64,000 nucleotides of DNA, taken from Oceanospirillaceae bacterium (GTDB lineage Bacteria; Pseudomonadota; Gammaproteobacteria; Pseudomonadales; Balneatricaceae). Of this stretch, positions 34,422 to 58,891 are shown piece after piece. The translations under genes were made by a program, and so were the position numbers. The stretch lies in NCBI GenBank assembly GCA_013215505.1, contig JABSQZ010000024.1, positions 1 to 64,000 of the forward strand. The letters run 5' to 3'. Each line of letters starts with the position of its first letter. Within the stretch, counting starts at the first letter, position 1. A model generated the notes under the pieces. The model ran no database searches. It was not told the DNA's origin and saw only the letters and a list, made by a program, of their open reading frames with translations.

Positions 34422-34986
34422 AATAAACCTCTGTGTAGAATGCTATTTGTATTTATGTTTGAATTGCTAGGGGCATTCTATGGGGGATATCAGCGCCGAA
34501 AAATTGATATTTTTTTGCTGTATTGGTAAAAATAATCTTCCAAAGCCAGGCGTGTTCGATTAGTTTATCTGCTGATTGAAGTGAGACTAAGGAACATATG
34601 AACAAGTCCGGTACGCCTCTGGCATTCAGAGCATTCTGAGATCTAGGCATCGACTACAGACATGCTGGTTGCCTATCGAAAGTCGATAACAACGATATCT
34701 GGATGCTCTGAACGCCCCTCCGGGCGGGCTATAAAGCGGTCAGCTGCTTTGTTAGACAATTTGGAAAGGACTAGTCATTCCGCTGCATTGTCTGTCGCAC
34801 ATCTGACCGCTTTATAGCTCGCAGAGAAGATACAGGACTTGTTCATATGTTCCCTAATATCCATTAGCCCGGTATATTGCGCTGTTATACCAACAAAACT
34901 ATGCCGCTGTTATATTTACTGTTAATCGCTACTGCCTATCCCCATGGGAAAGACGCCGTGATATAGCCGCTAGTACAGGAAAAACA
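34422..34986. other. Divergent intergenic region carrying a structured element
   Basis: 565 bp between the beta-hydroxyacid dehydrogenase and LysR genes. Almost half is the mobile-like element 34591-34853. The remaining flanks hold the divergent promoters; no gene seen. Confidence 0.6.
34591..34853 (+). mobile_element. Non-autonomous structured element, copy 1 (263 bp)
   Basis: Perfect 19-base terminal inverted repeats GGAACATATGAACAAGTCC / GGACTTGTTCATATGTTCC, flanked on both sides by CTAA (candidate 4-bp target duplication). Inside are two hairpins: TTCAGAGCAT (34625-34634)/ATGCTCTGAA (34703-34712), and GCTATAAAGCGGTCAG (34728-34743)/CTGACCGCTTTATAGC (34803-34818). No coding frame. A second copy lies at 58562-58891 in the opposite orientation and a degraded one at about 63356-63531. 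Confidence 0.88.
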
Positions 34987-35904
34987 ATGGCAAAAAAGAT
35001 CGATTTACGAAAACTACCGCCGCTTAAATCATTGAAGGGCTTTGAAGCGACGGCTCGACTATTAAGTGTCCGAGGCGCGGCAGAAGAGCTGAATTTAACC
35101 CATCCAGCCGTCAGCCATCAGATTCAGGTCATTGAAAAAGCCTTAGCGGTGAAGTTGTTTTCTCGTGCGGGGCGCAACATACGTTTGACAGATGCCGGAC
35201 ATGCCTATTACCTATTTGTGCGCCAGGCATTGGAAATTCTAATTCAAGGCACAGAGCAAGTAGCGAGCTTTTCGACAGTGCCGGCGCTGCGTTTTCAGAC
35301 TTACATCAGCCTTTCTATTCGCTGGTTGGCGCCGCGTTTACATCGCTTCTCGATGGAGCAGCCAGACATAGACATACAGTTAAGCTCTTGTAGCCCGGGA
35401 TGGGAGTTTGATGAAGGCAATGCTGATATAGGACTTATCTACTCTACCTCGGCTCTGCCAAATCACCTGCATTGGGTGGACTTTTTTGATTCTGAGTTCT
35501 TTCCGGTATGTTCACCTGATTTGATTAAACCGGCCAATACACAAATGTCCCCACAACAGTTATGTCAATATCCGCTACTAAAAGTATCGGGAGAAGAGAA
35601 GTACTGGAACTGGGAGCAATGGTTTACCTCTGTCGGCAGCGAAAACAAAAACTATCAATCATCCATTGAGGTCGATACTTCTGCAGCGGCTATTGAAATG
35701 GCGATTAACGGTGAGGGCATAACCTTAGTCAGTGCGGCCCTGGTGACTGCGGATTTAACCTCAGGGCGACTCATAAAGCCTATAGATCACAGCACTCGCG
35801 GTAATGGTAAATGGGGTTTAATCTGCAACAAAACAGCGTTACAAGACCCAAGGGTAGAAGTGTTTCTTAACTGGCTGATTGCAGAAAAAAATGCTAGCAA
35901 ATGA
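34987..35904 (+). CDS. LysR-family regulator (GcvA-like)
   Basis: 305 residues. HTH near the N-terminus (LKSLKGFEATARLLSVRGAAEELNLTHPAVSHQIQVIE) and a LysR effector domain (FQTYISLSIRWLAPRLHRF, DIGLIYSTSALP, EMAINGEGITLVSAALV). The LSVRGAAEELNLTHPAVSHQI type is that of GcvA-like regulators. Divergent from the beta-hydroxyacid dehydrogenase gene and probably its regulator, although the mobile-like element now separates the two. AGGAAA precedes the ATG. Confidence 0.92.
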   Translation: MAKKIDLRKLPPLKSLKGFEATARLLSVRGAAEELNLTHPAVSHQIQVIEKALAVKLFSRAGRNIRLTDAGHAYYLFVRQALEILIQGTEQVASFSTVPALRFQTYISLSIRWLAPRLHRFSMEQPDIDIQLSSCSPGWEFDEGNADIGLIYSTSALPNHLHWVDFFDSEFFPVCSPDLIKPANTQMSPQQLCQYPLLKVSGEEKYWNWEQWFTSVGSENKNYQSSIEVDTSAAAIEMAINGEGITLVSAALVTADLTSGRLIKPIDHSTRGNGKWGLICNKTALQDPRVEVFLNWLIAEKNASK

Positions 35905-36097
35905 AGTATTTAAATATTCTGACAGCAATCTAATTATTCGATTTACAGCTAATCGCGAACAGCACCTTATTTACTCTAATAAAAGGCCTGAAGCAGTTTT
36001 AGAAAACTCCGCCACAATAGGACGGAGTTAGCAGAAGGTCATATCCTGCAACAGGACCCAGCTGATTGAAGTCCCTCTAACGCAAATGTCGATGATC

Positions 36098-37846
36098 TCA
36101 GTCGCCTAAGACTATTCCCTCTCGACGTGGGTCAGCAGCACCCACCAGCTTTCCATCCTGGAACAGAACTGCATGCAGGCCTGAGTTCAGGTCCCGCACT
36201 TTAACTTTAAAGCCCATTGCCTCTAAAGGTGCCTGAAAACGAGTAGCAGCACTGCCTTTCTCCAGATCGTAAGTGCCAAATCGGTTAACTAAATGAGGTA
36301 GATTGATCGCCTCATTAATCGGCATGCCCCAATCAAGATGCGCGATCAAAGTAGCGGCGACATAACCTATAATCCGCGAACCACCCGGAGAGCCCAGTGC
36401 TAAGTATGGCTTGCCGTCTTTTAAAACAATGGTTGGCGACATGGAGGAGCGGGGCCGTTTGCCAGGTTCCAATCTGTTGGCAATAGGATATCCATTTTTA
36501 TAACTGGCAAAAGAAAAGTCAGTCAGTTCATTGTTCAGCAGGAATCCATTGCTCATCACCCGCGAGCCAAAGCCATTCTCGATGGTACTGGTCATAGAGA
36601 CAATGTTACCCATCTTATCGACAATCACCAGATGAGTAGTTGAAGGCAGCTCGATCGATTGATCATCAGCCATCACAATAGGGTGTTCCCAGCGTGGCTC
36701 ACCAGCGCTGGCAGTTTCTAGCGCTTTACCCGGTTTAATCAACTTGGCGCGCTGTGCTAAATAGTTTGCATCCAGTAACCCCTCGGGCATAGGTACAAAA
36801 TCACTGTCCGCCATATAGCGACCGCGGTCGGCAAAAGCTAGGCGTGATGCATCACCGATAACTTGCCAGGCGGTGGCATTATCGGCACCCATTGACTGCA
36901 GATCAAAATGGCTGGAAATCCCCAGGATCTGACCTACTGTCAGCGCACCAGAGCTAGGTGGTCCCATGCCACAGACTTCATACTGACGATAGGGGGCACA
37001 GATCGCAGGGCGCTCTATAACCCGGTAGTTGGATAGATCCTGAAGTGACAGTAATCCAGGGTTATTTTCCAGCCCTTGAACTTTGTTAACAATGGCTGCA
37101 CCTATCGAACCATTATAGAAAGCTGTTGCCCCGTCTTTTGCCAGCGTCGCAAGTGTTCGGGCATAAGCCGGATTTTTTAACACTGTCCCTGCTGTTAAGG
37201 GTTCTCCGGCAGCGTCAAAGAAGTACTGTTGAGTGTCCGGATAACTGCTTAAGCGTTTTTTGTCCTTGGCGATAGCCCCGGCGAGGCGCGCAGATACTTT
37301 GAAACCACGCTGGGCTGTTTGCTGTGCGGGCAATAACAAATCGGCCCAAGGTTCGCTACCAAAGCGTGTGTGAAGGTCGGACATTAGTTTTACAGTCCCT
37401 GGAGTGCCGACAGACAACCCGCCAACTACTGCTTGGTAAAACTTCAGAGGCTTACCGTTTTGATCCTGAAACAGTTCCGGTCTGGCCGTCATTGGCGCTG
37501 TTTCACGACTGTCAAAAGAAGTGAGTTTGCCACTTTTAGCATCGTAATAGAGCATAAAGGCACCACCGCCTAAACCTGATGACTGTGGTTCGACCAGGCC
37601 TAACATCGTCTGTACTGCGACCATTGCGTCTATGGCGCTACCTCCGCGTTTGAGTACATCGTAACCTGCTTTGGCGGCCAGCGGGTTAGCCACCGCCAGC
37701 ATATAATTGCTGGCGCTGACACTGGCTTTTTTAGTAAAACCGCTAGCCGCTTCCGGAGCGATTGAGTCGGTTGTCTGAGCAGCGTTTAAAGGTACAGATA
37801 ACAGCGCGGTAGCCGCAAGTAGAGCTGAGCTTTTGAAAATATGCAT
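36098..37846 (-). CDS. ggt: Gamma-glutamyltransferase, periplasmic
   Basis: 582 residues, family-typical length. Signal peptide MHIFKSSALLAATALLSVPLNA. Large-subunit marks GGSAIDAMVAVQTMLGLVEPQSSGLGGGAF and DSRETAPM (Arg). The autoprocessing Thr nucleophile is in ELPSTTHLVIVDKMGN (about 400), and GFGSRVMSNGFLLNNELTDF and RPRSSMSPTIV follow. It hydrolyses glutathione and transfers gamma-glutamyl groups in the periplasm. Stands alone with a good ribosome site (AAGGAA). Confidence 0.95.
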   Translation of the reverse strand: MHIFKSSALLAATALLSVPLNAAQTTDSIAPEAASGFTKKASVSASNYMLAVANPLAAKAGYDVLKRGGSAIDAMVAVQTMLGLVEPQSSGLGGGAFMLYYDAKSGKLTSFDSRETAPMTARPELFQDQNGKPLKFYQAVVGGLSVGTPGTVKLMSDLHTRFGSEPWADLLLPAQQTAQRGFKVSARLAGAIAKDKKRLSSYPDTQQYFFDAAGEPLTAGTVLKNPAYARTLATLAKDGATAFYNGSIGAAIVNKVQGLENNPGLLSLQDLSNYRVIERPAICAPYRQYEVCGMGPPSSGALTVGQILGISSHFDLQSMGADNATAWQVIGDASRLAFADRGRYMADSDFVPMPEGLLDANYLAQRAKLIKPGKALETASAGEPRWEHPIVMADDQSIELPSTTHLVIVDKMGNIVSMTSTIENGFGSRVMSNGFLLNNELTDFSFASYKNGYPIANRLEPGKRPRSSMSPTIVLKDGKPYLALGSPGGSRIIGYVAATLIAHLDWGMPINEAINLPHLVNRFGTYDLEKGSAATRFQAPLEAMGFKVKVRDLNSGLHAVLFQDGKLVGAADPRREGIVLGD

Positions 37847-38327
37847 GAAAGTTCCTTTTTATCATTATTGCAGATTGATTGTATATATCAGTGCTGAGCT
37901 GTTTTCAATAAAAATCTGTAACTGATAATTTATACCAGCATATTGATCAGCGCCTCACTTCACTCAATCTCAGAGCTAATAGACAAAACTGCGAGACACT
38001 TTTTACAACAGCGACCTATTGCACTTTTATCCTCTATCTCTAAAGTTAAAGGGTATTGAACTAACCAGGAGCGCGGCACTAACTGCACTGTGCTTTTCTG
38101 CCATCTTTGGATGCATTCACAAACGATATCTGTTGCCATCGCAGTTATTCGCCTTAGATAATTGCAGATATCAGAGAGACTCGCATCTAACACTGATGTT
38201 TATAGAGTTTTACTTATGTTGCAAATCGCAATGCCCTCAAATACCTGTTGTTTACAGGAAATTATCAGTAAACAAAGATCTGCTGGCCATGTTTATTGTC
38301 TAATAAGGACTGCGCAGAAGGGCATAT
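37847..38327. other. Intergenic region, no gene seen
   Basis: 481 bp between divergent genes. Frames of 77 and 94 codons exist on opposite strands over the same bases, but neither has a ribosome site or family resemblance. Promoters of ggt and of the cyclase gene are expected here. Confidence 0.5.
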
Positions 38328-39947
38328 ATGAATATAAGTAAAAAAATCATTCTACTGCCTGCAGTGATCATTGTGCTTTTAGGTGGCGCCGGTTTAATGG
38401 TTATCGATGAGGAAATACGTGAGGGGTTGGGGGTAAGAGTCGAGCGAGAATTAAAATGGCTGGCCGAATCTGCCTTAGAGGGCCTGGCTATTTCCAACAA
38501 AACACTGACGGTGGCCAATGTGGATGCTATTGCTAAACGGTTCGGCAACATATCAGGGGCCAGGATTACCTTTGTTGATGAATTTGGTGTAGTTACTGGA
38601 GACTCAAAGGTTGCGATAGAGGCGATCTCGACACTCCCCAACCATAAAGAGAGGATTGAAATATTCCAGGCGTACAAATCGGGGCTGGGTGTGGCCAAGC
38701 GCCACAGCGAAACCTTAAAGCAAGATTTTTTCTATGTGGCCATATTTAAACCTATAACCGTCCAGGGGCAGTCGATAGATTATTATGCCCGTGCCTCGTT
38801 TTCCTCGCTGACTATCCGCAAGCAAATTGTGCATATGCGCTATGCCTTGTTGTCTATTTTAACGGTTGGGGTCATCTTTATTACGTTACTGACCGTACTA
38901 GTACTGCGCTGGCTCTCGCTATCCAATGAGAGGGAGAAATTACACTTAGAAAATGAATTAAGGTCCAGAGATACTGAAATTGAATTAATGCATGAACTTG
39001 ATTCGCTATTGAGTGCCTGCAGTGAAATAGCGGATGCTAAAGAGGTAATCAAGCAAGTACTGCCCAGTATATTAACCCAATCCCAAGGCGCTATTTCGGT
39101 CTATAAGTCATCCAGAGACAAGTTGAAAACGCAAATGTACTGGGGGGGAACCTGGAGTGAGAATAAACACTTCAGGCCCAACCAGTGTTGGGGGCTACGT
39201 AAAGGGCATCGACACTTATCCAGTGACAAGCAGCAAGGGGTGGTGTGCGAGCACTTTGCCAACACTGGCAATCAATCTACACTCTGTATTCCGCTGATTG
39301 CCCACGGCGAAACAATTGGTGTGTTGCATCTGCTAAAGAGCAAAATTGATTCACAAACAGCAAAACTTGCGGACGCAATCGCCAAGAGAATTGGTATTGC
39401 GATTGCAAATATCGAACTAAGATTCAGTCTGAGAGAACAGGCAATTAAAGATACTTTGACCAATCTGTATAATCGACGCTACTTATTTGAATCTCTGGAG
39501 CAGTTTGTCGCCAGAGCGCTGCGAACAAAAAGCCATATTGGCATTGTGATGGTCGATATTGATAATTTTAAAAAGCTCAATGATAGCCATGGCCACGATG
39601 CCGGTGACCTGGCGCTTAAGGCCATTGCAAAATTTTTCAAAACAGTCACCAGAGCAAGTGATGTGGTTTGTCGATACGGAGGAGAAGAGTTTTGTATTGT
39701 CTGTCCTGAAAGTAACAGCGAAGAAACCTTGTTTATCGCTGAAAAGCTGTGCTTTGGGGTACGAGATTTAGCGATACAGATTAGTGGGACGCAAAAGATA
39801 ACCCTTACCTTATCTGCGGGAGTGGCAATCTTTCCAAACGCCGAAGAATCTATTCAAAAAACCATAAGCGATGCTGATCAGGCACTGTATCAGGCCAAAC
39901 ATGACGGGCGAAATTGTGTCCGAGTCTCTCAATCAATCCACAGTTAA
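38328..39947 (+). CDS. Membrane diguanylate cyclase with GAF domain
   Basis: 539 residues. TM1 about 8-25, a periplasmic sensor (26-165, with GARITFVDEFGVVTGDS, PhoR/sCache-like), TM2 about 170-195, a coiled-coil linker, a GAF-like domain about 230-370, and a GGDEF domain. The catalytic site is RYGGEEF (GGEEF form), preceded at five residues by RASD, a complete inhibitory I-site (RxxD). It makes cyclic di-GMP and is likely inhibited by its product. The 3' end overlaps the convergent LysR gene by four bases. Confidence 0.93.
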   Translation: MNISKKIILLPAVIIVLLGGAGLMVIDEEIREGLGVRVERELKWLAESALEGLAISNKTLTVANVDAIAKRFGNISGARITFVDEFGVVTGDSKVAIEAISTLPNHKERIEIFQAYKSGLGVAKRHSETLKQDFFYVAIFKPITVQGQSIDYYARASFSSLTIRKQIVHMRYALLSILTVGVIFITLLTVLVLRWLSLSNEREKLHLENELRSRDTEIELMHELDSLLSACSEIADAKEVIKQVLPSILTQSQGAISVYKSSRDKLKTQMYWGGTWSENKHFRPNQCWGLRKGHRHLSSDKQQGVVCEHFANTGNQSTLCIPLIAHGETIGVLHLLKSKIDSQTAKLADAIAKRIGIAIANIELRFSLREQAIKDTLTNLYNRRYLFESLEQFVARALRTKSHIGIVMVDIDNFKKLNDSHGHDAGDLALKAIAKFFKTVTRASDVVCRYGGEEFCIVCPESNSEETLFIAEKLCFGVRDLAIQISGTQKITLTLSAGVAIFPNAEESIQKTISDADQALYQAKHDGRNCVRVSQSIHS

Positions 39948-40846
39948 ACTGTTTCACAGTTTAGCGCAACTGCGTCATCGATAAAAAAGCTCAGCAGAGC
40001 TTGTACTTTTGCAGTTAAGTGTTGGCGGTGTGGGTAGAGGATGTAAATTCCGGTCTGCTGTGGGGTATATGGGCTTAATAACCTGACCAGTGATCCGAGC
40101 TGCAACTCTTGCTGCACTGAAAAGTCCGGCAGTAGTGATATGCCTAAACCTGCTACTGCCGCACTTTTTGCGGCGACGGCACTGTTAACAGTAAGGCGAG
40201 TGTTAGGCAGTACCGTTTGATTCAAGCCCTGTAAACTAAAGCGCCACTTAGCACCAGAGCGGCGATTGCTGTCATGGATAGCGGGGAGTTGTCTGATATC
40301 ATCGGGGGTCTGTATTTTCGGATACTGTTTTAACAGCGCAGGACTGGCGACTAACACAGATTCTATCGCACCGATTTTGCGCGCTATTAAGTTTGAATCT
40401 TGCATTTCTCCAATGCGAATAGCCAGGTCAAAACCTTCATCAACAATATCTACATAGCGGTCATTAAGTTGCATATCTACGGTAATGTTTGGATAAGCGA
40501 GCATAAATTTTGCCAGTAGCGGGGTGAGTTTTATCTCGGCAAAAGATTGCGGCGCACTGATGCGCAGTCGACCACTGATAGCATCCTTCTGTCCTTGGGC
40601 GGTTAATTGTAATGCGCCGACATCATCCAGTATCTGCCGGGCTGAAGCATAGATCACTTTTCCGGTATCAGTAATGGCAATGCTGCGGGTCGTGCGGTTG
40701 ATCAGTTTGGCCTGCAGTAACTCTTCAAGTTGTGATACTTGTTTGCTGACGATCGCTTTAGTCTTTCCCAGGCTGGCGGCGGCCTTAGTGTAACTGCCTT
40801 GCTCTACCACAGCGGCGAAGCTATTCATTAACGTTAACTTGTCCAT
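39944..40846 (-). CDS. LysR-family regulator
   Basis: 300 residues: HTH DKLTLMNSFAAVVEQGSYTKAAASLGKTKAIVSKQVSQLEELL and a substrate domain with ISGRLRISAPQSFAEIKLTPLL, DLAIRIGEMQDSNLIARKIG, SAVAAKSAAVAGLGISLLP. This is the CrgA/DmlR-like subgroup. Divergent from the GST-remnant/dioxygenase/GlcG operon, which it probably regulates. Confidence 0.93.
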   Translation of the reverse strand: MDKLTLMNSFAAVVEQGSYTKAAASLGKTKAIVSKQVSQLEELLQAKLINRTTRSIAITDTGKVIYASARQILDDVGALQLTAQGQKDAISGRLRISAPQSFAEIKLTPLLAKFMLAYPNITVDMQLNDRYVDIVDEGFDLAIRIGEMQDSNLIARKIGAIESVLVASPALLKQYPKIQTPDDIRQLPAIHDSNRRSGAKWRFSLQGLNQTVLPNTRLTVNSAVAAKSAAVAGLGISLLPDFSVQQELQLGSLVRLLSPYTPQQTGIYILYPHRQHLTAKVQALLSFFIDDAVALNCETV

Positions 40847-40981
40847 ACATTCACATTGTCAATTAATTGTTAACAGTAAGTTCTAAATAATCGATATTGT
40901 CAATAGATGTTCAGGACTTCATTATCTTAAGCAACAGTTAATTACTCATCGTCTTTAAACCTCTGGTCATAGGAGAGTGCA

Positions 40982-41386
40982 ATGTTAGTGAACGGCGTTT
41001 GGCCAAGAAAAACGGAATCCTACCAAAACAAGGATAAGCAGAGCAGGTTTATCAGACAAAGCTCCAGTTTTAGACACTGGGTGAGTGCAGATGACCGCCC
41101 TTATCTGCTGGGCGAGGCAATTACAGAGTGTGACATCAGAGCCTTTGTCACAGGGGTAAGGTTTAATGTCGCCTACCAGAGTTTATTTAAATGCAATCAA
41201 AAACGCATGAGCGATGACTCTTATCTAGCAGCTTACTTAGAACGTTTCTATAACCTCGATGGGATCAGCGAAACGGTCAATATTGAACATATTAAAAGCG
41301 GCTATTATTCAGCGGCTGCCTTAAACCCCCGTTTAATCGCCCCCATCGGGCCCTCATTAAACTTTATTGAAAAGGAGTCTGAATGA
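40982..41386 (+). pseudogene. Glutathionyl-hydroquinone reductase with large internal deletion
   Basis: 134 codons, still in frame. The first about 37 residues (LVNGVW...RFIRQSSSFRHWV-S-AD) match the N-terminus and the rest (YLLGEAITECDIRAFVTGVRF, FKCNQKRMSD, ETVNIEHIKSGYYS, NPRLIAPIGPS) the C-terminus of the xi-class GST/YqjG family, about 320 residues long. About 180 middle residues are missing at the junction near residue 40, including the whole thioredoxin-like domain with its CPWAHR active-site Cys. The ribosome site (TAGGAGAG) and the four-base overlap with the next gene are intact, so it may still be translated but cannot catalyse the normal reaction. Confidence 0.82.
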
Positions 41387-42171
41387 TGCTGGCCCCGGTG
41401 TTTTATCTGTCTCATGGCTCGCCGATGCGGGTATTAGAAGACAGCCCCGCCCGCGATTTTTTACAGCATTTAGGAGAGAGCACAACAAACATAAAAGGCC
41501 TAGTGGTGGTTTCTCCGCACTGGGAAACAACCGATATCGAATACACTAACAGCGAAAAATTAGAGACAATTTATGATTTTTATGGCTTTGGCGAACAGTT
41601 GCATCAGATTGTATATGCGCCAAACAATCCTCTGTGGCTGCAACAGGCTTTAATGCAAAGTTTAGAGCAACATTCAATTAACTCACTCGGAGCAGGACGC
41701 GGACTAGATCACGGCGCCTGGTCAGTTTTATCGCTAATGTACCCACAAGCTGACATACCTACAATAGGGTTAAGTTTACCCAGCAGACTGGATTTGCAGG
41801 GCCTATATGCATTAGGGCAAGCGTTAATACCGTTGCGGGAGCAGGGCATCGCTATCATCACCACCGGTATGGCCACTCATAACTTAGCCGAGTTAAGCTA
41901 TTTCGGAGAGACGCAGCATTGGGCCAGGGAGTTTATCGATTGGCTGCAATGTACCATGCAGCAACAAGACTTAAAGGCCTTGTTAAACTATAGAACACTC
42001 GCCCCAAATGCAGTAAAAAGCCATCCAAGAGATGAACATCTACGGCCTTTATTTATCGCCTTAGGGGCGTCTGATAAGCAGAGCGCTGAGTTAATTCACG
42101 ACTCCTGGGAAATGCGCAACGGTAATAATTCCAGCTGGGGCTGGGGGATGCCGGCAGGAGAGAGAGAATGA
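41383..42171 (+). CDS. Class III extradiol ring-cleavage dioxygenase, DODA (YgiD) type
   Basis: 262 residues. Metal-site marks: VFYLSHGSPM with the first His, VVVSPHWETTD (His), GRGLDHGAWSVLSLMYP (His) and HPRDEHLRPLFIALGA. DODA/YgiD enzymes open catechol rings such as 4,5-DOPA, using zinc or iron. Overlaps the preceding remnant by four bases and the next gene by four, so the three form one operon, typical for quinone/catechol detoxification sets. Confidence 0.9.
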   Translation: MMLAPVFYLSHGSPMRVLEDSPARDFLQHLGESTTNIKGLVVVSPHWETTDIEYTNSEKLETIYDFYGFGEQLHQIVYAPNNPLWLQQALMQSLEQHSINSLGAGRGLDHGAWSVLSLMYPQADIPTIGLSLPSRLDLQGLYALGQALIPLREQGIAIITTGMATHNLAELSYFGETQHWAREFIDWLQCTMQQQDLKALLNYRTLAPNAVKSHPRDEHLRPLFIALGASDKQSAELIHDSWEMRNGNNSSWGWGMPAGERE

Positions 42172-42608
42172 CAGTGCGCGGTTTAAATCTACAGCAGGCA
42201 CAACAAATTTTGCAACGTGCACTCATGTTGTCCACTGAACTCAGTGCCGCTCCACTGTCAATCGCCATATTAGATGCTGGTGGTCATTTAAAGAGTTTTG
42301 CCAGTGAAGACCAAGTGGGTATTGCCCGCGCTGAAATAGCGCGGGGAAAAGCTGCTGCGGCCTTAGGCATGGGTTTTGGAACCCGCAAACTACATAACCT
42401 AATCAGGCAGGGCATTTTACCGGAAATGTTTGCCACTTGTATTAACGGTGCCACTAATGGCAACTTTGTTGCATTACCTGGCGGTGTACTCATCTATGAT
42501 AAAAGTGATCTTTTAGGTGCTGTAGGAATATCAGGTGCCTCATCGGATCTAGATGAACGGGTGGCAGTCAGGGCGATTGAAAGCTGTAATTTTCAAGCAG
42601 AGCCTTAA
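42168..42608 (+). CDS. GlcG/HbpS-family heme-binding protein
   Basis: 146 residues, DUF336/PF03928 family: LSIAILDAGGHLKSFASEDQVGIARAEIARGKAAAALGMG and the C-terminal GGVLIYDKSDLLGAVGISGASSDLDERVAVRAI. Function ranges from extracellular heme binding (HbpS) to small companions of oxidases (GlcG). Here it is the last gene of the dioxygenase operon. No signal peptide visible. Confidence 0.87.
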   Translation: MTVRGLNLQQAQQILQRALMLSTELSAAPLSIAILDAGGHLKSFASEDQVGIARAEIARGKAAAALGMGFGTRKLHNLIRQGILPEMFATCINGATNGNFVALPGGVLIYDKSDLLGAVGISGASSDLDERVAVRAIESCNFQAEP

Positions 42609-42982
42609 GCATCTATAGAGCAGGAAAAGCCACCCATGGGGGATATTCATAAGATTTGCGAGGCAAAGTCTGGTGTTTTCTGCGGTTAAATGTACAGCTT
42701 TCAGCATGAAATACTGTTTTTTGCTGGTGGCAATTGTGCTGTGGTTTACTTAATCAGATAATTAAATTCCCCTTATTTTTACTGGATCACATAGCGTCAT
42801 AATAGCTCTTTATCCCGCCAAAAAAAATTCTAACTGATTAATATAACGTGTTAATATTCTGTTCGATAAATATTAAATATATGATATATCTGCAATGCAG
42901 TGTAGCGCTTAAAGCTAATACAGCATTGACCAGAGTTGAAGTCGCACGGGTATATTCGGCACAGCCAAATTTAAGGAGCATT
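42609..42982. other. Intergenic region, no gene seen
   Basis: 374 bp before the SDR gene. Open codons of the SDR frame continue upstream to 42848 but lack family character; no terminator recognised. Confidence 0.5.
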
Positions 42983-43696: not shown

Positions 43697-43809
43697 CGAC
43701 AGAACGTGCAAGATATCCACCCGCTAGCGGCCTACCTGCATATGTCTTGTATTCTAAGGCTAATAGTATTCCTCGGCACTCGCTAAGCTATCCATTTTAG
43801 CCACCGGAT

Positions 43810-43830: not shown

Positions 43831-43838
43831 AAATACAA

Positions 43839-49504: not shown

Positions 49505-50050
49505 AAGCGTTATTAGGGTTCTGAAACAGGCCTATAACATCAATTGATGTGCCCGCTGGAACAGCAGTTGATCGTCGATTCATGTTGCTTTGTTAATCAC
49601 CTTCCGCGCCAATAAATTAGCTTAATTAATTAGTGTAACTAGCTGATAAGTAATATTTAACTATTCTGTTTTTGAAAGGATTGTTTTTTAAAAACTGAAC
49701 TGTTAGAGGTCTTTTTTGCCATTAATTTGTTGTTTAACAACTAGTCAATTTGCTAGCATGTTCTAACCTCTGTTATTGCGATATCAGGAGTAACATAGAG
49801 CGGGATATTACTCGTTTTGATATCTGTGGCTATGTCACAGAGTGTTCTGTCGACATTGGCACCAGGGCTGCCGCAGGCCCTGGACATCTACTGCAATTGA
49901 TTGCCTATGCGCACAACACCCATGACCAAAATCTCGCCAGTGGTGAACAAATTCGTGCGCATCACAATGTAAACTTATAAGGCCTTGCTAACTTTAGAGT
50001 CGCTATTTTTATTGCAAAACATCGATTTAAGCTTCGAAGATTAAATCGTT
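49505..50050. other. Intergenic region, no convincing gene
   Basis: 546 bp. A 76-codon plus-strand frame at 49750-49980 has no ribosome site and no recognised family. No terminator identified between the convergent neighbours. Confidence 0.45.
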
Positions 50051-51037: not shown

Positions 51038-51115
51038 GGGTATGTACCTTAATTCTTGATTGATATTCTGTATTTGACTGCTGCAATATGCGCAGTAGCC
51101 TAGCGTATAGTTTTT

Positions 51116-52300
51116 TTAATGAATCGCCTCAATGATCAGTGCAATCCCCTGACCACCGCCGATACACATAGTAATCAGGGCGTAGCGCCCACCACTGCGC
51201 TGTAACTCGTAGATGGCTTTGACCGTTATTACTGCTCCAGATGCCCCGATAGGGTGACCCAGGGCGATTGCGCCGCCATTAGGGTTCGTCTTTTTAGGGT
51301 CCAGCCCCAACACTTGGGAGACTGCACAGGCTTGAGCGGCAAACGCCTCATTTGATTCAATAAGATCCATATCAGACAAGCTTAAACCGGCACGCTGCAA
51401 GGCTTTTTCAACCGCTTTAACCGGGCCAATCCCCATCAGCGCAGGATCTACCCCAGAGTGTCCGTAGGCGACGATCCTCGCTTGGGCTTTTAACCCTTGT
51501 TGCTCGGCTGCCTCTGCTTCCATCAGTACCAGTGCCGCGGCACCGTCATTCAGTCCTGAAGCGTTACCGGCTGTTACTTTGCCACCTTTTTTAAATACCG
51601 GTCGCAGCTTACTGAAATCTTCCAGACAAGGGGCCTGGCGAAAGTGTTCATCGGTATCAAAAAATTCTGGTCCGCGGCGCTTATTAAGCGCTACAGGCAC
51701 TATTTGCTGCTTAAAATAACCCAGCTTAATGGCCCGGTCGGCGCGTATGTGGCTCTCGAGGGCGAATTCATCTTGTTGCAGCCGATCGATGTTGTATTTT
51801 TCTGCCAGGTTCTCAGCAGTGATTCCCATATGGCCGTTGCCAAAAGGGTCGGTCAAAACACCGGTCATCATATCTATCATGGTTGCGTCACCCATACGTT
51901 GCCCCCAGCGCAAAGCAGGCGCCAGGTAACCGGCACGGCTCATGTTTTCTGCGCCACCGGCAACGGCGACGGTGGCATCCCCGAGCATCAACGACTGAGC
52001 CGCAGAGATCACCGCTTGCAAACCACTACCACAGAGGCGGTTGACGGTTAGAGCGCTGCTATGTTGCGACAGGCCTGCCTCCAGTGCGGCAACTCTGGCT
52101 ATATACATATCTCTGGCTTCAGTATGGATAACGTGGCCCAGTACCAACTGTTGTACTGAATCTGCATCAATATTGGCCCTGGCTATTGCTTCCTTTATAC
52201 AGATTGCCGCCAGTTGACTCGGAGGGATATCTTTCAGGCTGCCGCCATAAGTGCCTATAGCAGTGCGCACAGCGCTGAGAATTACGATTTCCTTGCTCAT
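51116..52300 (-). CDS. Acetyl-CoA acetyltransferase (thiolase)
   Basis: 394 residues, complete thiolase. Active-site Cys in TVNRLCGSGLQAVISAAQ (about 89), NPNGGAIALGHPIGASGA (His) and MCIGGGQGIALI (second Cys). Start MSKEIVILSAVRTAIGTYGGSLKDI. Catalyses beta-ketoacyl-CoA cleavage or acetoacetyl-CoA condensation. With the SDR upstream it may perform the last steps of a degradation path. Confidence 0.94.
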   Translation of the reverse strand: MSKEIVILSAVRTAIGTYGGSLKDIPPSQLAAICIKEAIARANIDADSVQQLVLGHVIHTEARDMYIARVAALEAGLSQHSSALTVNRLCGSGLQAVISAAQSLMLGDATVAVAGGAENMSRAGYLAPALRWGQRMGDATMIDMMTGVLTDPFGNGHMGITAENLAEKYNIDRLQQDEFALESHIRADRAIKLGYFKQQIVPVALNKRRGPEFFDTDEHFRQAPCLEDFSKLRPVFKKGGKVTAGNASGLNDGAAALVLMEAEAAEQQGLKAQARIVAYGHSGVDPALMGIGPVKAVEKALQRAGLSLSDMDLIESNEAFAAQACAVSQVLGLDPKKTNPNGGAIALGHPIGASGAVITVKAIYELQRSGGRYALITMCIGGGQGIALIIEAIH

Positions 52301-52325
52301 TTATAATCCTTTAAGTAAATTGTTT

Positions 52326-53087
52326 TCAGGCGAGTAACCCGCCATCGACGATCAGAGTCTGGCCGGTAATATAGCTGGCGCCGGCGCAGAAGTAGAAAAT
52401 GGCCTCCGCGTAATCTTCTGGGACACCAATGCGCTTGAGGGGCAGGGCCTGGGCCGCCTTGTCTGCATCGGCTTCATCCCAGCTACAGTCCCAGCCAGAG
52501 CTTTTAACCCAGCCCGGAGCAATCGCATTCACCCGAATGTTGGGACCTAGTCCCCGGGCCAACTCGCGGGTCATAGTGATTAAGCCGCCTTTAGTCGAAG
52601 CATACACAGTGCTACTGGCACCACCACCCATGGCCGCCACTGAGGCGACGTTAACGATAGCTCCACCCTCTTTAAGATGCGGAAGGGCCGCCCGAATACA
52701 GCGAAAAGGCCCCACCAGATTGACTGATAATAGCTTGTCCCAGAACGCTTCGTCCTGAGTGTTCAGATCAGACTGGGCAATAGTATCGCGAGTGCCAGGA
52801 GTCGCAGCGTTGTTAATCAGATAATCCAGCCCGCCCATGCTAGCTGCAGCATTATCCACCATACGAATTACATCTGCAGGATCACTGACATCGCCCTCTG
52901 CGGCCAACACGTCAAAGCCTAGCTCAAGTAGCCTCTGTACTTGTTCTGCCAGAATTTTACTTCCAGGCAAATCATTTATTGCCACTGTAGCACCGCAGCG
53001 GGCAAGCTTTTCGACGGTGGCCAGGCCTATACCTGAGGCGCCACCTGTCACTAAGGCACACTTGCCTTTTAGATCAGCGTAAATCAT
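52326..53087 (-). CDS. SDR-family dehydrogenase
   Basis: 253 residues: cofactor motif ALVTGGASGIGLATV, YLINNAATPG, catalytic SVAAMGGGASSTVYASTKGGLI, APGWVKSSGW. Probable 3-hydroxyacyl or alcohol dehydrogenase acting before the thiolase 25 bp downstream. Divergent from the LysR gene. Confidence 0.92.
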   Translation of the reverse strand: MIYADLKGKCALVTGGASGIGLATVEKLARCGATVAINDLPGSKILAEQVQRLLELGFDVLAAEGDVSDPADVIRMVDNAAASMGGLDYLINNAATPGTRDTIAQSDLNTQDEAFWDKLLSVNLVGPFRCIRAALPHLKEGGAIVNVASVAAMGGGASSTVYASTKGGLITMTRELARGLGPNIRVNAIAPGWVKSSGWDCSWDEADADKAAQALPLKRIGVPEDYAEAIFYFCAGASYITGQTLIVDGGLLA

Positions 53088-53336
53088 CTTTGAATTCCTT
53101 GTATTTTATTTTTATGGTGACAACCGATGTGAGTAGCCATCCCCTGGAGATGGATTGATGAATCATCGGTCTGATTAAGTTGCATAGTGGAAGAATACCT
53201 AGGCACTTATCATAAATAAAACGAATAATTATTATGTATATCATGATGAAATGGAATGACGTAAGCTAAGGGCAAGTTCAGGGGTCCCAGTACTCTTTGA
53301 ATACAACCGCACTTATCATTTGCAGCAGGGGGTCCC

Positions 53337-54233
53337 ATGCGTCGCGTCAATCTGGATATCGATTTATTAAGGTGTTTCGCCACTGTCGTGGAAGCGGGAG
53401 GCTTTACCGCGGCGGCTAAAACCTTGCTGCGTACCCAGTCTGCAGTCAGTGTGCAAATCAAACGCCTCGAAGCAACCATCGGCCATAAATTATTTGAAAG
53501 GAGTAAACGCACACCGGTGCTGACCGAGCAGGGTGAAATGTTGCTGGGCTATGCGCACCGCATCTTAAAACTCAACGATGAAACCGTGCTTCGATTGACC
53601 GAAACCGAGATGGAGGGTACTTTGCGACTGGGGGTTGTTGAATATTTAGCGCCGCATCGACTGCCGGACATTATCTCTAAGTTGAGACGCGCTTATCCGC
53701 GTCTGGATCTGCGCTTGCGTATTGATCTGAGCAGCAAACTGCATGCAGAGCTGGAAGCGGGTAAGCTGGATGTGATTATTGCAGCCAGAAGTGAAAATAA
53801 AGATTATGGGCAGGAGCTTTTTCGTGAACAGCTTTGCTGGGCCACTGGTCCTTTGGGAATACCAGATGCCCAAACTCCTGTGCCTCTGGCAGTGCTGCCA
53901 CACCCTTGCTTTTATCGCCAGGCCGCCATTACCTCGCTGGATCAACAGGACAGGCCCTGGTATTGCGCGGTGACCACAATGAATATTTCCGGGGTCCAGA
54001 AGGTCATCGAAGCTGGCCTGGCAGTCGGGGTACTAAGCAAATCATCGCTGCTTCCGAGCATGACTATATTGGGTCCAGAAGATGGTTTCCCATTGCTGCC
54101 AATGATTAGTCTTGGGGTGTTTAGCAATAACTACGACAGTAAATTCGCCATTGCACCTGTGATGAAATTTATTGCTGATTGCGTGGTCGATACACAGCAT
54201 TATATTCCTCAGCTAGTAACTGCGAAGCTTTAG
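53337..54233 (+). CDS. LysR-family regulator
   Basis: 298 residues. HTH DIDLLRCFATVVEAGGFTAAAKTLLRTQSAVSVQIKRLEA and an effector domain with GTLRLGVVEYLAPHRLPDIISKLRRAYP. Divergent from the SDR/thiolase/quinone-reductase operon, its likely target. GGGGG precedes the ATG. Confidence 0.93.
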   Translation: MRRVNLDIDLLRCFATVVEAGGFTAAAKTLLRTQSAVSVQIKRLEATIGHKLFERSKRTPVLTEQGEMLLGYAHRILKLNDETVLRLTETEMEGTLRLGVVEYLAPHRLPDIISKLRRAYPRLDLRLRIDLSSKLHAELEAGKLDVIIAARSENKDYGQELFREQLCWATGPLGIPDAQTPVPLAVLPHPCFYRQAAITSLDQQDRPWYCAVTTMNISGVQKVIEAGLAVGVLSKSSLLPSMTILGPEDGFPLLPMISLGVFSNNYDSKFAIAPVMKFIADCVVDTQHYIPQLVTAKL

Positions 54234-54338
54234 CAGGCTCACTATTGTGTAATATAATCCCTATATAAGATGAACTTATCTTTATTTCCTACCTCCAATT
54301 CAATTACTTAAAGCTACCTTTGAACGGAAAATGAAGCG

Positions 54339-54677
54339 ATGCAAAAATTAATTGACGATTATATAGCGATGAATATTGAAGGTCGGGTATTAGAGCTATG
54401 TCAGAAGTACTACGCCACAAATGTACTGATGCTCAATAACGGTAAGGTTTTTGCCGAGTCTATGCAGGAATCCTATGATAAGCAGAAAAAGTATATTGGG
54501 CTAGTCACCGAGTTTGAGGTTAAATTGCTCTCTGCAAAAATTCAGGGAAACGTCAGTGAACTGGTTTTTCACTATAAAATGACTGGAGCTAATTCAGTAA
54601 ATGAGTTTACCGGTAAGCATATTCAAACCTGGGAGCAACAAAAAATTGTCAGAGAAGAATATCTTTCCATTGAATGA
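54339..54677 (+). CDS. SnoaL/NTF2-like small protein
   Basis: 112 residues. The order of elements (helix MQKLIDDYIAMN, CQKYYATNVLMLNNGKVFAES, strands VTEFEVKLLSAKIQGNVSELVFHYKMT, HIQTWEQQKIVREEYLS) is that of the SnoaL-like cone fold. Function unknown; followed by the AlkD-like gene. Confidence 0.75.
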   Translation: MQKLIDDYIAMNIEGRVLELCQKYYATNVLMLNNGKVFAESMQESYDKQKKYIGLVTEFEVKLLSAKIQGNVSELVFHYKMTGANSVNEFTGKHIQTWEQQKIVREEYLSIE

Positions 54678-54701
54678 GTGGTTTGAATGAGTAGGAAACC
54701 A

Positions 54702-55477
54702 ATGGATGAAATCTTATTAATAATAAACAACAAGTTGAAATAATCAGAGATAAACTCAGAGCTGTCTGTACTGCTGAAATAGCGCAGTCGATACGTCGCT
54801 ATTTTCCGCATGGAATTAACTGTATCGGAGCCACTGCTGCTGATATAAATAGGATTGTCACCAGCTTTAAAGCTGAGAATTCGGGGCTGTCGGCCAATGA
54901 AGTTTTAAGTGTCTCTGAAACTGTTTTAAAGCATGCCCAGTACAGCGAAGAAGTGTTTATCGCCTATGGTCTTATCGGGCATCTGGTGAAAAAGCATTTC
55001 GATGATGATCTATTACTGCGTTTTCAATATTGGCTCGAACACTATGCGTGCAACTGGGCGCATGTCGATGATCTGTGTATTAAAGCTATTTATAATTTCT
55101 TAATGGCACGCCCGCATTTAATAGAAGCTACTCAAGTTTGGTCATACTCAGATGTGCCCTGGTGTCGACGGGCCAGTAATGTGGTTTGGGTGAAGTTTAT
55201 CAAACGAAAAATCGGCAAGTCTGTTTACACTCTGGATACAAACTTAGTCTTCGAGAACTGTGATCAGCTGATGTTAGATGAAGATGAGTTCGTGCAAAAA
55301 AGTGTCGGCTGGCTGTTAAAAGTCACAGCAGTACATCATCAACAAGATGTTATTGAATACCTAAAGCGCAATATCAATATTATACAGCGATCTACTTTGC
55401 GCTATGCGCTGGAAAAAGTGGATGTTGATACTCGAAAATCAATATTGTCATACTCAGAGATGAGTCGTAAGTCGTAA
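54702..55477 (+). pseudogene. DNA alkylation repair (AlkD-like HEAT) protein, frameshifted start
   Basis: The body frame (open from 54714) contains VEIIRDKLRAVCTAEIAQ, GLIGHLVKKHFDDDLLLRF, NWAHVDDLCIKAIYNFL and WCRRASNVVWV, the family's HEAT-repeat pattern with the conserved Trp/Asp. No start codon opens it before about GTG 54953, which would remove the first 80 residues. ATG 54702 (MDEILLIINN) lies in a different frame and stops at 54741-54743. A one-base change near 54720-54740 would join the two into a full-length about 258-residue protein. Either a recent frameshift, a sequencing error or an unusual start. Ends in SRKS, encoded by the heptamer array. Confidence 0.65.
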
Positions 55478-55489
55478 GTTTTAAGTTGG
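55462..55489 (+). repeat. Heptamer array at convergent gene ends
   Basis: GAGTCGT, AAGTCGT, AAGTTTT, AAGTTGG in tandem. It forms the last codons and stop of the AlkD-like gene and overlaps the end of the opposite HDAC-like gene. Confidence 0.85.
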
Positions 55490-56389
55490 TAATAATTTGT
55501 GGGCTTCTTCTACTGCTATGGCGTGGCGCATTGCCAGGGCTCGCTGGTCTTTGTCGTAGCCTCCGCCTATGACGGTGGCGACTGGGATTTTTAGATCCAG
55601 GCAGCGCTTTAGTACATGATGATCACGGGCACGGATACCGTCCATAGTGACATTAATCAGCCCAAGCGGATCATCGGCAAAGATATCCACTCCGGCATCA
55701 TAGATCACAAAATCCGGCTGACTAAGTGCCAGTGCCTGTTCCAAGCCATCGGCCATCAGCTGCAGATAAATATCGTTATTTGCACCCACCGGGATGTTTA
55801 TATCCAAATCACTTTGCGCCTTGCGCGCCGGGAAATTTTTTTCGCAGTGTACTGAACAAGTGAAGACATTTTGCTGATCAGCTAATATTCGTGCTGTACC
55901 GTCTCCCTGATGCACATCCAGATCAAAGATCAACACTTTGCTGGCGCTGCCATGGCTCAGCAGGCTATTAGCCGCAATCGCCAAATCATTGAGGATGCAA
56001 AAACCCGAAGCGTAATCGTAGTGGGCGTGATGGGTACCCCCGGCTAAATGGCAAGCTATACCGTGTTTTATCGCCAGATGGCAAGTGAGCAAAGTGCCAA
56101 CCGGTGATATCAAGGTACGGCGCACTAGCCCCGCGCTCCAGGGCAAGCCCATACGGCGCAATTCTTTTTTATCCAGTTTATTGTTAACAAACCGCTGCAA
56201 ATAATCAGAGCAGTGGGCCGTCTCTAACAACTGCATTTTTGCGCTGCCGGGGCGGTAAGTGTTGCTGGGGGTGGCAATTCCCTGATGTTGCAAATACTCA
56301 TATAACAGCCGAAACTTCTGCATCGGAAAGCGATGTTTATCCTCGAAGTCGTAGCTGTAGTGCGGGTGAGTAACAAGGGGTAGTGACAT
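55481..56389 (-). CDS. Histone deacetylase-family protein
   Basis: 302 residues. Zinc/catalytic marks: HLAGGTHHAHYDYASGFCILND (His-His, Asp), LIFDLDVHQGDGTA (DxDVHxG) and YDAGVDIFADDPLG (Asp). Bacterial members deacetylate polyamines or small amides, or acetylated proteins. Convergent with the AlkD-like gene. Confidence 0.92.
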   Translation of the reverse strand: MSLPLVTHPHYSYDFEDKHRFPMQKFRLLYEYLQHQGIATPSNTYRPGSAKMQLLETAHCSDYLQRFVNNKLDKKELRRMGLPWSAGLVRRTLISPVGTLLTCHLAIKHGIACHLAGGTHHAHYDYASGFCILNDLAIAANSLLSHGSASKVLIFDLDVHQGDGTARILADQQNVFTCSVHCEKNFPARKAQSDLDINIPVGANNDIYLQLMADGLEQALALSQPDFVIYDAGVDIFADDPLGLINVTMDGIRARDHHVLKRCLDLKIPVATVIGGGYDKDQRALAMRHAIAVEEAHKLLPT

Positions 56390-56637
56390 AGTTCTACTTT
56401 TTTAAAGCTAACGCCAAAAGGGTCAGAGAATTGGATTGAATAAAGCTTTGCCATGTTACAAAAAATCGATATGGATTTATACCGTTACCTGCTTTGAAAG
56501 AAACTGCCGTATAAGCTGCACGTTACAGTGGTATCGATACTCTTTTGTAATCAGGTTTAAAAAGTGTCAATAAACATCATTAAAACATCAAATATCAGAT
56601 GCTTGCTGTGAAATTCACAGTATTGGCAATATAATCT

Positions 56638-57423
56638 GTGGCCAGTGCCATAGGCGCCAGCTTTGAATCGATTAACTTTACCTCTGGAATTAACCTGGAT
56701 ATTCTGCATTTATATTTTTTTATCATTGCTCTATTTGCATCTGCAATATCCGCTGTCGTTGGCTTTGGCTCAGCATTGATCCTCATCGCCGCCTCCTCGA
56801 TGGTCTACGATATAAAATGGAGCATAGCCATAACTACCTTTTTGTATTTTTACAATAGCGCACTGAAAAGCTACTCGTTTAGACAAAGTGTTGATGTATC
56901 GCTAACGTTGAAAATGACTGCTCTGGCTATACCTGGCGTTTTTTTAGGCGGCTATTTTTTACTCAACATACAAGCTCAAGTTATCCATATATTACTTGCT
57001 TTGGTCGCGCTGCTCTATTTAGCGATTGATTTTTTTAAGTTCAATAGTCAGATAACAGTTGCTGACAAACTCCTGTACGGCTCTGGCTTTATCTATGGCT
57101 TTATTTCCGGGGCTGCAGGCAGTGGCAGTATAGTAAAGGCTATTGTCTTTAAGCATATCCAGCTCCCTAAAGAGGTTTTTGTTGCCACTATGGCAGCGTC
57201 GGCCCTACCACTCAATATTATTAAAATAGGCATTTTTTCTGCCGGCGCAATTATCGGTTTTTCAGACATACCACTGATATTGCTATTGCTTGTCGCCAGC
57301 TATTTAGGTACCCAGCTAGGTAAAAAAGTGCTGGTGAAAATATCGCAATCTTTTTTTGAAAAGCTAGTCCGATTAATGTTGTTAGTGTTGTCTATAAAGT
57401 TACTGTATTCAGCTATAGTCTGA
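56638..57423 (+). CDS. TauE/SafE-family membrane transporter
   Basis: 261 residues, about eight membrane segments: ALFASAISAVVGFGSALILIAASSM, FLGGYFLLNIQAQV, ISGAAGSGSIVKAIVFKH and LVASYLGTQLGKKVLV. Starts with GTG 56638; a later start within the first 30 residues is possible. Distant relative of the exporter at 15696; no sulfonate genes nearby, so the substrate is open. Confidence 0.82.
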   Translation: MASAIGASFESINFTSGINLDILHLYFFIIALFASAISAVVGFGSALILIAASSMVYDIKWSIAITTFLYFYNSALKSYSFRQSVDVSLTLKMTALAIPGVFLGGYFLLNIQAQVIHILLALVALLYLAIDFFKFNSQITVADKLLYGSGFIYGFISGAAGSGSIVKAIVFKHIQLPKEVFVATMAASALPLNIIKIGIFSAGAIIGFSDIPLILLLLVASYLGTQLGKKVLVKISQSFFEKLVRLMLLVLSIKLLYSAIV

Positions 57424-57489
57424 CAGCCGAGACGCTGTACAATCCATCTTGCTGCCGCCATGGCAATTTTAAATCCGCAAAGGAATTCT

Positions 57490-58278
57490 ATGAGAAGTTT
57501 GCATGTATTATTATTCCCGCTAATCAGCACAATACTGATTGGTTTTACGACAATAGCGCAGGCAAAAAGCCAATGGACGGTGCTGGAAAGGATAGAGCGG
57601 TTTAGTAACCAGACTCATCATTGGGGGCAAAAGGGCCAGGTCTCTGCCAATAACGGATGGTCTGATTACGGGAAATTAAAAATTAGCTTGAGTAATGAAA
57701 AATACCTGTTACTACAGCAGTGGCAGAACGAGTTATTACTTGAGGTGTATTCAACACAATCAACCACTCCAAGCTTCAAGGCGTTGAGTATTCCCGGCGC
57801 GGGTTTGTTTTTCAGCCCTCAAGGCTCAAGTAATTGCGCAGCTGATTCGATTCAACAAGCCGGCATGTTTGCAGAAATGACCCTGTTTTACATGGCAAAG
57901 CTATTTCCTGAAGGACCTTCCAATTTAATTAAAGGGAGCTCTTTTAAACTAAAAGGTGCACAAACTGAATTCAGGTTTATGAAATTAGCGGTGCAAATTA
58001 ACACCCCTTGGTCAGTCACTGGGTTAATCAGTATGTCACAGCCGGGCAGGCATAAGTTGCAAATAACCGGACCGGATAATCATCCGGCATTGGTAGATTG
58101 GAGTCAGCAAAAAAAACAGCGGGTAGCTTCCTCTGAGCTGTTGAAAAACTGGGATGCTTGTTGGACGGGCTCGCATAGAGCAGATAATAAAGGTGGCAGC
58201 AGAACCTTTAAAACCAATATTTCAGATACCGAAAATATAGCGACTTTTGCACATATACGGGAGCAATTGGATAATTAA
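57490..58278 (+). CDS. Secreted hypothetical protein
   Basis: 262 residues from ATG 57490, chosen for AAAGGA at the right spacing; ten extra codons upstream are open. Signal peptide MRSLHVLLFPLISTILIGFTT to about AQA. The mature part has two Cys (SSNCAAD and WDACWTG) that may form a disulfide, and beta-rich segments. Family not recognised. Its stop codon runs directly into the AAGTCGG array. Confidence 0.75.
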   Translation: MRSLHVLLFPLISTILIGFTTIAQAKSQWTVLERIERFSNQTHHWGQKGQVSANNGWSDYGKLKISLSNEKYLLLQQWQNELLLEVYSTQSTTPSFKALSIPGAGLFFSPQGSSNCAADSIQQAGMFAEMTLFYMAKLFPEGPSNLIKGSSFKLKGAQTEFRFMKLAVQINTPWSVTGLISMSQPGRHKLQITGPDNHPALVDWSQQKKQRVASSELLKNWDACWTGSHRADNKGGSRTFKTNISDTENIATFAHIREQLDN

Positions 58279-58319
58279 AGTCGGAAGTCGGAAGTCGGAA
58301 GTCGGAAGTCGGAAGTCGT
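58278..58319 (+). repeat. Heptamer tandem array (AAGTCGG x5 + AAGTCGT)
   Basis: Starts with the final A of the upstream stop codon. Five perfect AAGTCGG units and one AAGTCGT. Confidence 0.95.
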
Positions 58320-58320
58320 C

Positions 58321-58576
58321 AGGGTAGTATTTGGAATAATTACGAAATTACCGTTATTAATGCATATACTCAGTTTCACTGCAGCGGGGCAGGTAATAAG
58401 GCGGATTATCCGGCGATTAGATCGGTGTTTGCCGCTATAAAATCACCGTTTTGCGGTAAGCGCATCGGCTATGTGTTGATTGGTGCGGCTCTGGGTGGGG
58501 AGATTGGAAAATTATCGCAGCTATCATTGATGCAGAACTACAAAACGAGGATCATATCCTAGGATCATGTGAATAA
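58321..58576 (+). pseudogene. Macro-domain (ADP-ribose phosphatase-like) gene remnant
   Basis: Translation shows EITVINAYTQFHCSG, DYPAIRSVFAAIKSPFCGKRIGYVLIGAALGG, then after a one-base shift KIIAAIIDAELQNEDHI and a stop at 58574-58576. This is the C-terminal half of a small macro-domain protein of the phage-like NAYTQ type. The N-terminal half is absent: the remnant begins where the AAGTCGG array ends. Its last codons run into the terminal repeat of the structured element, which therefore abuts or inserted at its end. Confidence 0.7.
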
Positions 58577-58891
58577 ATCCGGTATCTTCTCTGCGAGTTC
58601 TAAAGCGATCAGATGTGCGACAGTCAACGCAGTGGAATGACGAGTCCTTTCCAAGTTGACTAACAAAGCAGATGATCGCTTTAGAACCCGCCCGTAGGGG
58701 CATTCAGAGCATCCCGATCTCGTTGTTATCAACTTTCGACAGGCACAGATTTTTTGCTCCATGCAAAGTCTAGGTACCTACATCCCTGTAGGCAACCAGC
58801 ATGTCTGTAGTTAGCATGCCCTTTGGGTGCGATGCCTAGATCTCAGAATGCTCTGAATACCAGAGGCGCACCGGACTTATTCACATGATCC
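58562..58891 (-). mobile_element. Non-autonomous structured element, copy 2 (330 bp)
   Basis: Terminal inverted repeats GGATCATGTGAATAAATCC / GGACTTATTCACATGATCC (one mismatch). Inside: GTTCTAAAGCGATCA (58597-58611)/TGATCGCTTTAGAAC (58673-58687) and ATTCAGAGCAT (58702-58712)/ATGCTCTGAAT (58848-58858). Aligns over its length with the reverse complement of 34591-34853, with about 65 extra bases in the second hairpin loop. No coding frame. Confidence 0.88.

Follow-up and report, generated by a model that had tools for sequence, protein, structure and literature searches.

The recurrence of one short sequence at this locus raises the question of whether its inverted ends are kept only for a transposase or whether the fold that they close is itself selected. 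The window, the whole 64,000-nucleotide stretch analysed here (contig JABSQZ010000024.1, from an Oceanospirillaceae bacterium), was described in an earlier note as carrying two copies that align over their length, at 34591–34853 and, inverted, at 58562–58891, and sequence inspection confirms both. The paired differences reported between them are also present: GGAAC/GTTCC becomes GGATC/GATCC, ATATG/CATAT becomes ATGTG/CACAT and AAC/GTT becomes AAT/ATT in the terminal repeats, and the inner stem GCTATAAAGCGG becomes GTTCTAAAGCGA with matching changes opposite. The first copy (263 bp, plus strand; 293.5 bits with R1, a covariance model built from 20 full copies) lies between target-site duplications reading CTAA at 34587–34590 and 34854–34857, of the YTAR type seen across the family. 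Its terminal stem P1 is formed by a left arm at 34591–34620, consisting of the IS5-type terminal repeat GGAACATATGAACAAGTCC and an inner CTCTG, and a right arm at 34823–34853, consisting of CAGAG and the right terminal repeat GGACTTGTTCATATGTTCC. Between these arms lie the long hairpin H1 (34622–34715; putative functional polarity, plus), with the internal loop CTAGGC at 34643–34648 facing TAACAACG at 34687–34694; a three-pair central hairpin recognized by inspection, P3 (34716–34724); and H2 (34725–34821; putative functional polarity, minus), an inverted copy of the H1 module.

The second copy (58562–58891, minus strand, 330 bp, 247.5 bits with R1) aligns with the first over its full length, its 67 additional bases forming two inserts in the first hairpin; its flanks are unlike each other and no target duplication is visible at them. 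Extra small hairpins at internal-loop positions occur in this copy and in L031, L144, L176 and L179, and CACCC..GGGCA is common to several such inserts, on either strand and in H1 or H2, in distant bacteria; they may represent a sub-domain that is optional, or a repeat nested within the element. A third, decayed copy at 63325–63529 on the plus strand (28.5 bits with R1, E 2.3e-4) retains a recognizable right half, CTTTGTCAG..CTGGAAAGG..GTCATT. Unpaired drift in the arms had been put forward as evidence against a selected fold; drifting copies such as this one do exist, but they are expected of dead transposon copies.

We searched the genome of the window with R1 and obtained 47 matches at E<=0.01, five of which are the opposite strand of another, leaving 42 places, the weakest with an E-value near 0.01 under a model whose E-values are rough. 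A BLAST search of the same genome with the element returned 62 pieces. At two places, G000:C5:14520-14571 (52 bp) and G000:C2:170034-170088 (55 bp), the body is deleted and both ends nearly touch. R1 finds a match in 47 of 116 genomes from the bacterial family and in 54 of 369 sampled from the class; R2, a core model built from 32 diverse copies, does so at E<=1e-5 in 102 of the 398 Pseudomonadota genomes sampled. These fractions vary with model and sample, every count includes the genome of the window itself, and copy numbers in the large searches are lower bounds, the scored candidates being limited to 17 or 5 per genome. Named records among the R1 matches listed include Amphritea, Neptuniibacter, Pontibacterium, Marinobacterium, Osedax symbionts and Reinekea, together with Gynuella, Thiomicrospira, Piscirickettsiaceae, Candidatus Thiodiazotropha, Vibrio penaeicida and Woeseiaceae. 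The core is probably present in the genus Pseudomonas as well, family f16 appearing to be Pseudomonadaceae from the plasmid matches of one member. Of at least 80 loci found by pattern scan, two from Bacteroidota (L106 and L125) went unmatched by R1 at E<=0.01 and were taken as chance.

Inspection by eye found the shared loop motifs in 28 of 29 R2 loci, within ends of many sequences, among them TATACCCAAG.., AATACCAA.., CTAGTGTCC.. and GGGGGCGTTCTC..; ends beginning TGTRCTG.. are found in Thiodiazotropha and others. Because the same loop motifs sit inside ends of many sequences, the core is old and the ends are lineage-variable, whether by exchange or by divergence. At one R2 locus, L367, both halves of the element were also found with R3, a model of the half-element described below. 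The sequence CTAGGGGGCGTTCTCAATTA stands in the right flank of a Thiodiazotropha copy (L144) and is also the element end in L373, which hints that it is an end common to another mobile element.

The family is a transposable element, specifically a non-autonomous miniature inverted-repeat transposable element (MITE): its ends are of the IS5 type, YTAR duplications flank its insertions, its copies are many and dispersed, and two sister genomes lack it at one locus. Exact 4-bp flanking repeats occur at 62 of 215 distinct insertions, compared with a shuffled mean of 15, and 55 of these 62 are YTAR (TTAG, CTAA, CTAG or TTAA). Insertions are short and uniform (159 of the 215 measure 261–267 bp and 177 measure 253–267 bp; the longest is 400 bp), have terminal inverted repeats and offer no space for a transposase. 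The relatives checked for empty sites, G003 and G006, carry the same two flanking genes at one locus with the element absent; their junction differs from the genome of the window by 18 further bases beside the element position, so the empty site is orthologous yet not letter-perfect. Genome G250 holds five copies (L338–L342), three of them identical at different sites and a fourth differing by 2 bases, which we read as a recently active family whose partner was not identified among the IS5 ends there. The gene context of 199 elements, assigned with a crude ORF caller, was divergent in 63, tandem in 104 and convergent in 32, with no clear preference at that resolution.

Element ends in the clade of the window read GGAACNTNYGAANAAGTCC. 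Ends of the same kind are found in 19 IS5-type elements, of which 17 belong to genomes of the same bacterial family and 2 to G250, another genome of the class. Identical 4-bp flanks border 13 of these 19, in a search that demanded a TA-centred left flank; the ends were counted by hand, and L355 is the element of another row reversed. The two groups differ in how well their own ends agree. At end position 5 the left and right ends agree in only 8 of the 19 IS5-type elements, and at position 6 in only 6; the element agrees at these positions in 92% of 103 distinct end pairs, a set obtained by passing the 215 insertions through an IS5-like filter and collapsing identical pairs. Across positions 4–9 the agreement is 78 of 114 cells for IS5-type elements and 559 of 618 for the element (p = 7e-9). 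Mismatched ends are thus common in autonomous elements and rare in the element, which argues that a transposase is not the sole reason for keeping its ends. The end-to-end distance is about 1.2 kb in the IS5-type elements versus 0.26 kb here, and more homogenization over the shorter distance is a possible partial cause of the end identity.

In the genome of the window the search for a transposase beside such ends yielded only fossils: remnants of IS5-type transposases lie beside such an end in L237 (from 1288) and beside a weaker end in L238 (from 1194), no intact IS5-type partner was found in that genome, and its two longer PF05598 frames (L234 and L235) have no such ends. IS5-type matches occur in 31 of 47 element-bearing genomes of the family versus 25 of the others (searches covered 116 and 114 genomes), and 6 of the 12 element-bearing genomes examined in the class lack any PF05598 match. 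In G250 the element ends, ACTAAGACAAACGATAAC and also ACTAAGACAAACGATAACAAAGCC, differ from the IS5 ends of that genome. The IS5 link is good for the clade of the window, and we do not extend it to other lineages. The module itself has no match at E<=1 in the 19 IS5-type loci (60 kb). We also considered an autonomous element with modules at its ends and rejected it after inspecting six partial Thiodiazotropha matches, with no two halves flanking a gene among them; L129 and L132 from Thiodiazotropha are lone right halves adjoining unrelated sequence.

The proposal that the terminal repeats close two long hairpins corresponds to the nested structure that we recover, in which P1 (the inverted ends plus CTCTG/CAGAG) is combined with H1 and H2, and P1, H1, P3 and H2 meet with almost no spacer. 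P3 reads CCC..GGG in 190 of 198 rows and is too invariant for covariation. In these 198 rows, taken from 231 aligned places, all 59 pairs that exceed 20 tree-preserving nulls lie within the nested structure, though this alignment had been fitted to the model and some of the same data had served to define the structure. MAFFT alignments, each tested with the RNAalifold consensus structure computed from it, agree: of the pairs above all 50 tree-preserving nulls, those in the structure number 37 of 37 in the alignment of 32 diverse cores, 32 of 37 in that of 100 modules and 3 of 3 in that of 20 copies (A1). Double-sided changes occur in 34 of 35 module pairs. Shuffling lowers the module covariation score from 0.953 to 0.222 +/- 0.008, and sliding the partners brings it to 0.198 or less. 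Among the 100 modules, 90.2% of 3474 pair cells are paired (51.7% in shuffles; at most 42.5% when slid). When 90 elements of exactly 263 bp are stacked without gaps, the signal is weak: only 2 pairs exceed the null and 26 of the top 50 lie in the structure. Elements of equal length need not be collinear. On the results from the other alignments, the fold of the element is selected. The central claim of the earlier note, that selection acts on folding and that a transposase alone does not explain why the ends are kept, is supported by the tree-null covariation in MAFFT alignments, the comparison with IS5 ends and the lack of an Rfam match.

The body of the element consists of two inverted copies of one hairpin module of about 97 nt, such that H1 aligns with the reverse complement of H2. 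Of 10 loci outside the 100 half-elements from which R3 was built, 9 yielded both halves on opposite strands and the tenth yielded one half. When modules are placed in their common orientation, G.T cells outnumber A.C cells by 241 to 79 (left halves 123:33, right halves 118:46, middle stem 36:3), and by rows G.T prevails in 76 of the 100 modules and A.C in 8, with 16 ties; some of the scored pairs were picked by a program that favours G.U. G.U-type pairs are accordingly tolerated on the strand running inward from the module's own end. Pairs chosen strand-blind give a mirrored bias, 135:67 in H1 and 84:218 in H2, and tree-based events in the two longer stems (a and b) are mirrored likewise, at 82:39 in H1 and 68:119 in H2; outside that sum the H1 apical stem gives 22:17 and P1 gives 89:76. 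The element is nearly symmetric, so some distant rows were probably flipped in alignment, which is expected to weaken the polarity signal, not to create it. Unpaired bases on the plus strand are mirrored too, with 34% A and 15% T in H1 and 37% T and 16% A in H2. A single full-length RNA from one strand as the sole selected form was rejected, wobble tolerance marking opposite strands in the two halves.

Within the module, the internal loop CAAGGC / AACNCNG is strongly conserved and non-Watson–Crick. Loop positions 28 and 69 change as a unit: 91 of the 100 modules have C.A there, the other 9 have A.G, and none mixes the two. Positions 21 and 77 alternate between Watson–Crick and G.A types. The central loop (alignment columns 126–134; 34716–34724 in the first copy) reads GNA on the plus strand in 114 of 198 rows and TNC in 42 of 198; a GNA loop resembles UNCG when read on the opposite strand, and the signature is ambiguous between DNA and RNA. 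Across the sampled Pseudomonadota, pairing, loop and strand polarity are under selection, and the sequence of the terminal stem differs by lineage.

A somewhat unlikely alternative is that the fold works as single-stranded DNA or as a cruciform, on the 5'-ended strand of each terminus, folding during replication, transformation, conjugation or transposition, with the paired repeats rebuilding a duplex end for the transposase. Several observations are consistent with this: the terminal repeats pair and covary within the same structure as the hairpins, polarity follows the 5' strand of each end, and the element is found in all gene contexts. G.T is the milder mismatch in single-stranded DNA as well. 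The commonest plus-strand central loop is of the G.A-type GNA form, a very stable DNA triloop, but the other strand resembles UNCG, which is an RNA tetraloop, and this leaves the triloop clue ambiguous. The mirrored polarity speaks against a constraint on duplex DNA only, since a cruciform alone should give no strand polarity. Coupled non-canonical loop changes and A-rich unpaired bases on the functional strand, both found here, are more typical of RNA. We infer that the fold most likely acts as RNA rather than DNA.

Two further alternatives deny either the function of the fold or the mobility of the element, and both fare poorly. It is very improbable that this is an ordinary MITE with ends matched by a transposase, arms matched by template switching or gene conversion, and a functionless fold. 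Template switching is known to correct imperfect inverted repeats, the ends of the element lie closer together than those of an IS, perhaps easing homogenization, and drifting copies exist; yet repair of a palindrome would erase the mismatched internal loop, which persists in 100 modules, and would yield neither the coupled non-Watson–Crick changes nor the bias of G.T over A.C, and IS5-type elements with the same ends lack left-right identity at positions 4–9. We rejected palindrome repair on the conservation of the loop and the coupled C.A/A.G changes. Hardly any credence attaches to a family of regulatory RNA genes that do not transpose but have been duplicated within genomes, with terminal repeats that would be a mere closing helix: strong covariation and conserved loops are indeed typical of an RNA family, but target-site duplications, IS5-type ends and sister genomes without the insertion all conflict with it, as does the complete change of end sequences between lineages. 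A reading as an attC-like site or a bridge RNA was also weighed and not adopted.

On present evidence this MITE is probably moved in trans by IS5-type transposases and carries orientation-independent structured modules that most likely act as RNA. Each module would act as a folded single strand, its RNA being made when a transcript enters the element from the side of that module. Because the two modules are inverted, a correctly oriented module would be transcribed first from either side. Acting in cis, the module could control processing, termination or antitermination, stability or protein binding of the host transcript; insertions might thereby be tolerated and the spread of the element favoured. 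A broader reading, which we put forward only tentatively, is that a selfish RNA module is distributed throughout Pseudomonadota, has travelled inside varied transposon ends and is kept as an inverted pair, with the enterobacterial repeat ERIC as its one-module form. If so, the module would bind a conserved host factor such as RNA polymerase, an RNase, the ribosome or an RNA-binding protein, and this binding would render insertions harmless or couple transcription to mobility. Gene-less transposons are usually regarded as short-lived IS derivatives with an unimportant interior. The interior of this element is an ancient structured module, kept by compensatory and coupled non-canonical changes while its ends differ by lineage, and its function can be tested through unpairing, re-pairing and inversion.

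With regard to novelty, Rfam 15 gave no match above its curated threshold in the window and 20 loci, the best weak match being SgrS at 11.7 bits against a threshold of 37, and the element thus adds a large structured family absent from that release. An exact pattern search of viral contigs found no match; BLAST searches with single members found none in phages and, for two members, none in plasmids, whereas two other members each matched 3 plasmid records. A literature search of open-access scope returned no paper recognizable as describing this element family. The earlier suggestion of an undescribed structured mobile-like or regulatory RNA family holds in that Rfam has no counterpart, and needs amending in that this is a true transposable element with a possible relative in ERIC.

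Gene-less repeats of comparable description are known from several bacteria. Bacterial MITEs are described in a review as mainly IS-derived, with target duplications (PMC10969869). The R0 and R2 repeats of P. fluorescens are short and gene-less, and an IS of that genome has identical inverted repeats (PMC2718517). Unlike IS-derived MITEs, the element has a core that is unmatched in the 19 IS5-type elements and that is spread across the sampled Pseudomonadota in differing ends. R200 (320 bp) and R6 (177 bp) of P. fluorescens are also intergenic repeats (PMC2718517), from a genus in which the core is probably present, and serve as no more than a lead. The CIR repeats of Caulobacter and Brucella are intergenic, with an RNA of two long arms and a linker, according to a review (PMC2229807); by the same account they differ from the element in measuring about 110 bp and having GANTC in a loop. 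REP/BIME sequences, GTAG-tagged short hairpins with a linked Y1 RAYT transposase, differ from the element in size and ends.

The closest comparison is with ERIC (also IRU or RU-1), a 127-bp repeat of enterobacteria that is likewise MITE-like, intergenic and built around a long hairpin. AAGGCG is found in 4 of 4 real ERIC copies and CAACGC in 3 of 4 at the matching place in the stem, the E. coli copy L389 being the one without CAACGC. The right end of ERIC (L387) and the element end of L371 are identical at 21 of 27 positions, a match reached by 1 of 2000 shuffles with the first six letters held fixed. TATACCC-type ends, which are ERIC-like, are present in L360, L368, L371, L374 and L381 and absent from the copies in the window. 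ERIC carries one module whereas the 263-bp element carries two, and the two are not alignable over the 127-bp body of ERIC; the module model scores 11, 9.3, 8.3 and 2.6 bits on four ERICs (best E 0.057 over 1.7 kb, not significant), compared with 9.8 and 9.1 bits on two flank stretches outside ERIC. On these sequence likenesses the case for kinship of the element with ERIC appears evenly balanced, and we do not claim membership. The review that describes CIR (PMC2229807) also reports an orientation-dependent effect of ERIC on mRNA, which would fit a polar module. The element offers a lead on two questions about ERIC, namely what moves it and what purpose its fold serves.
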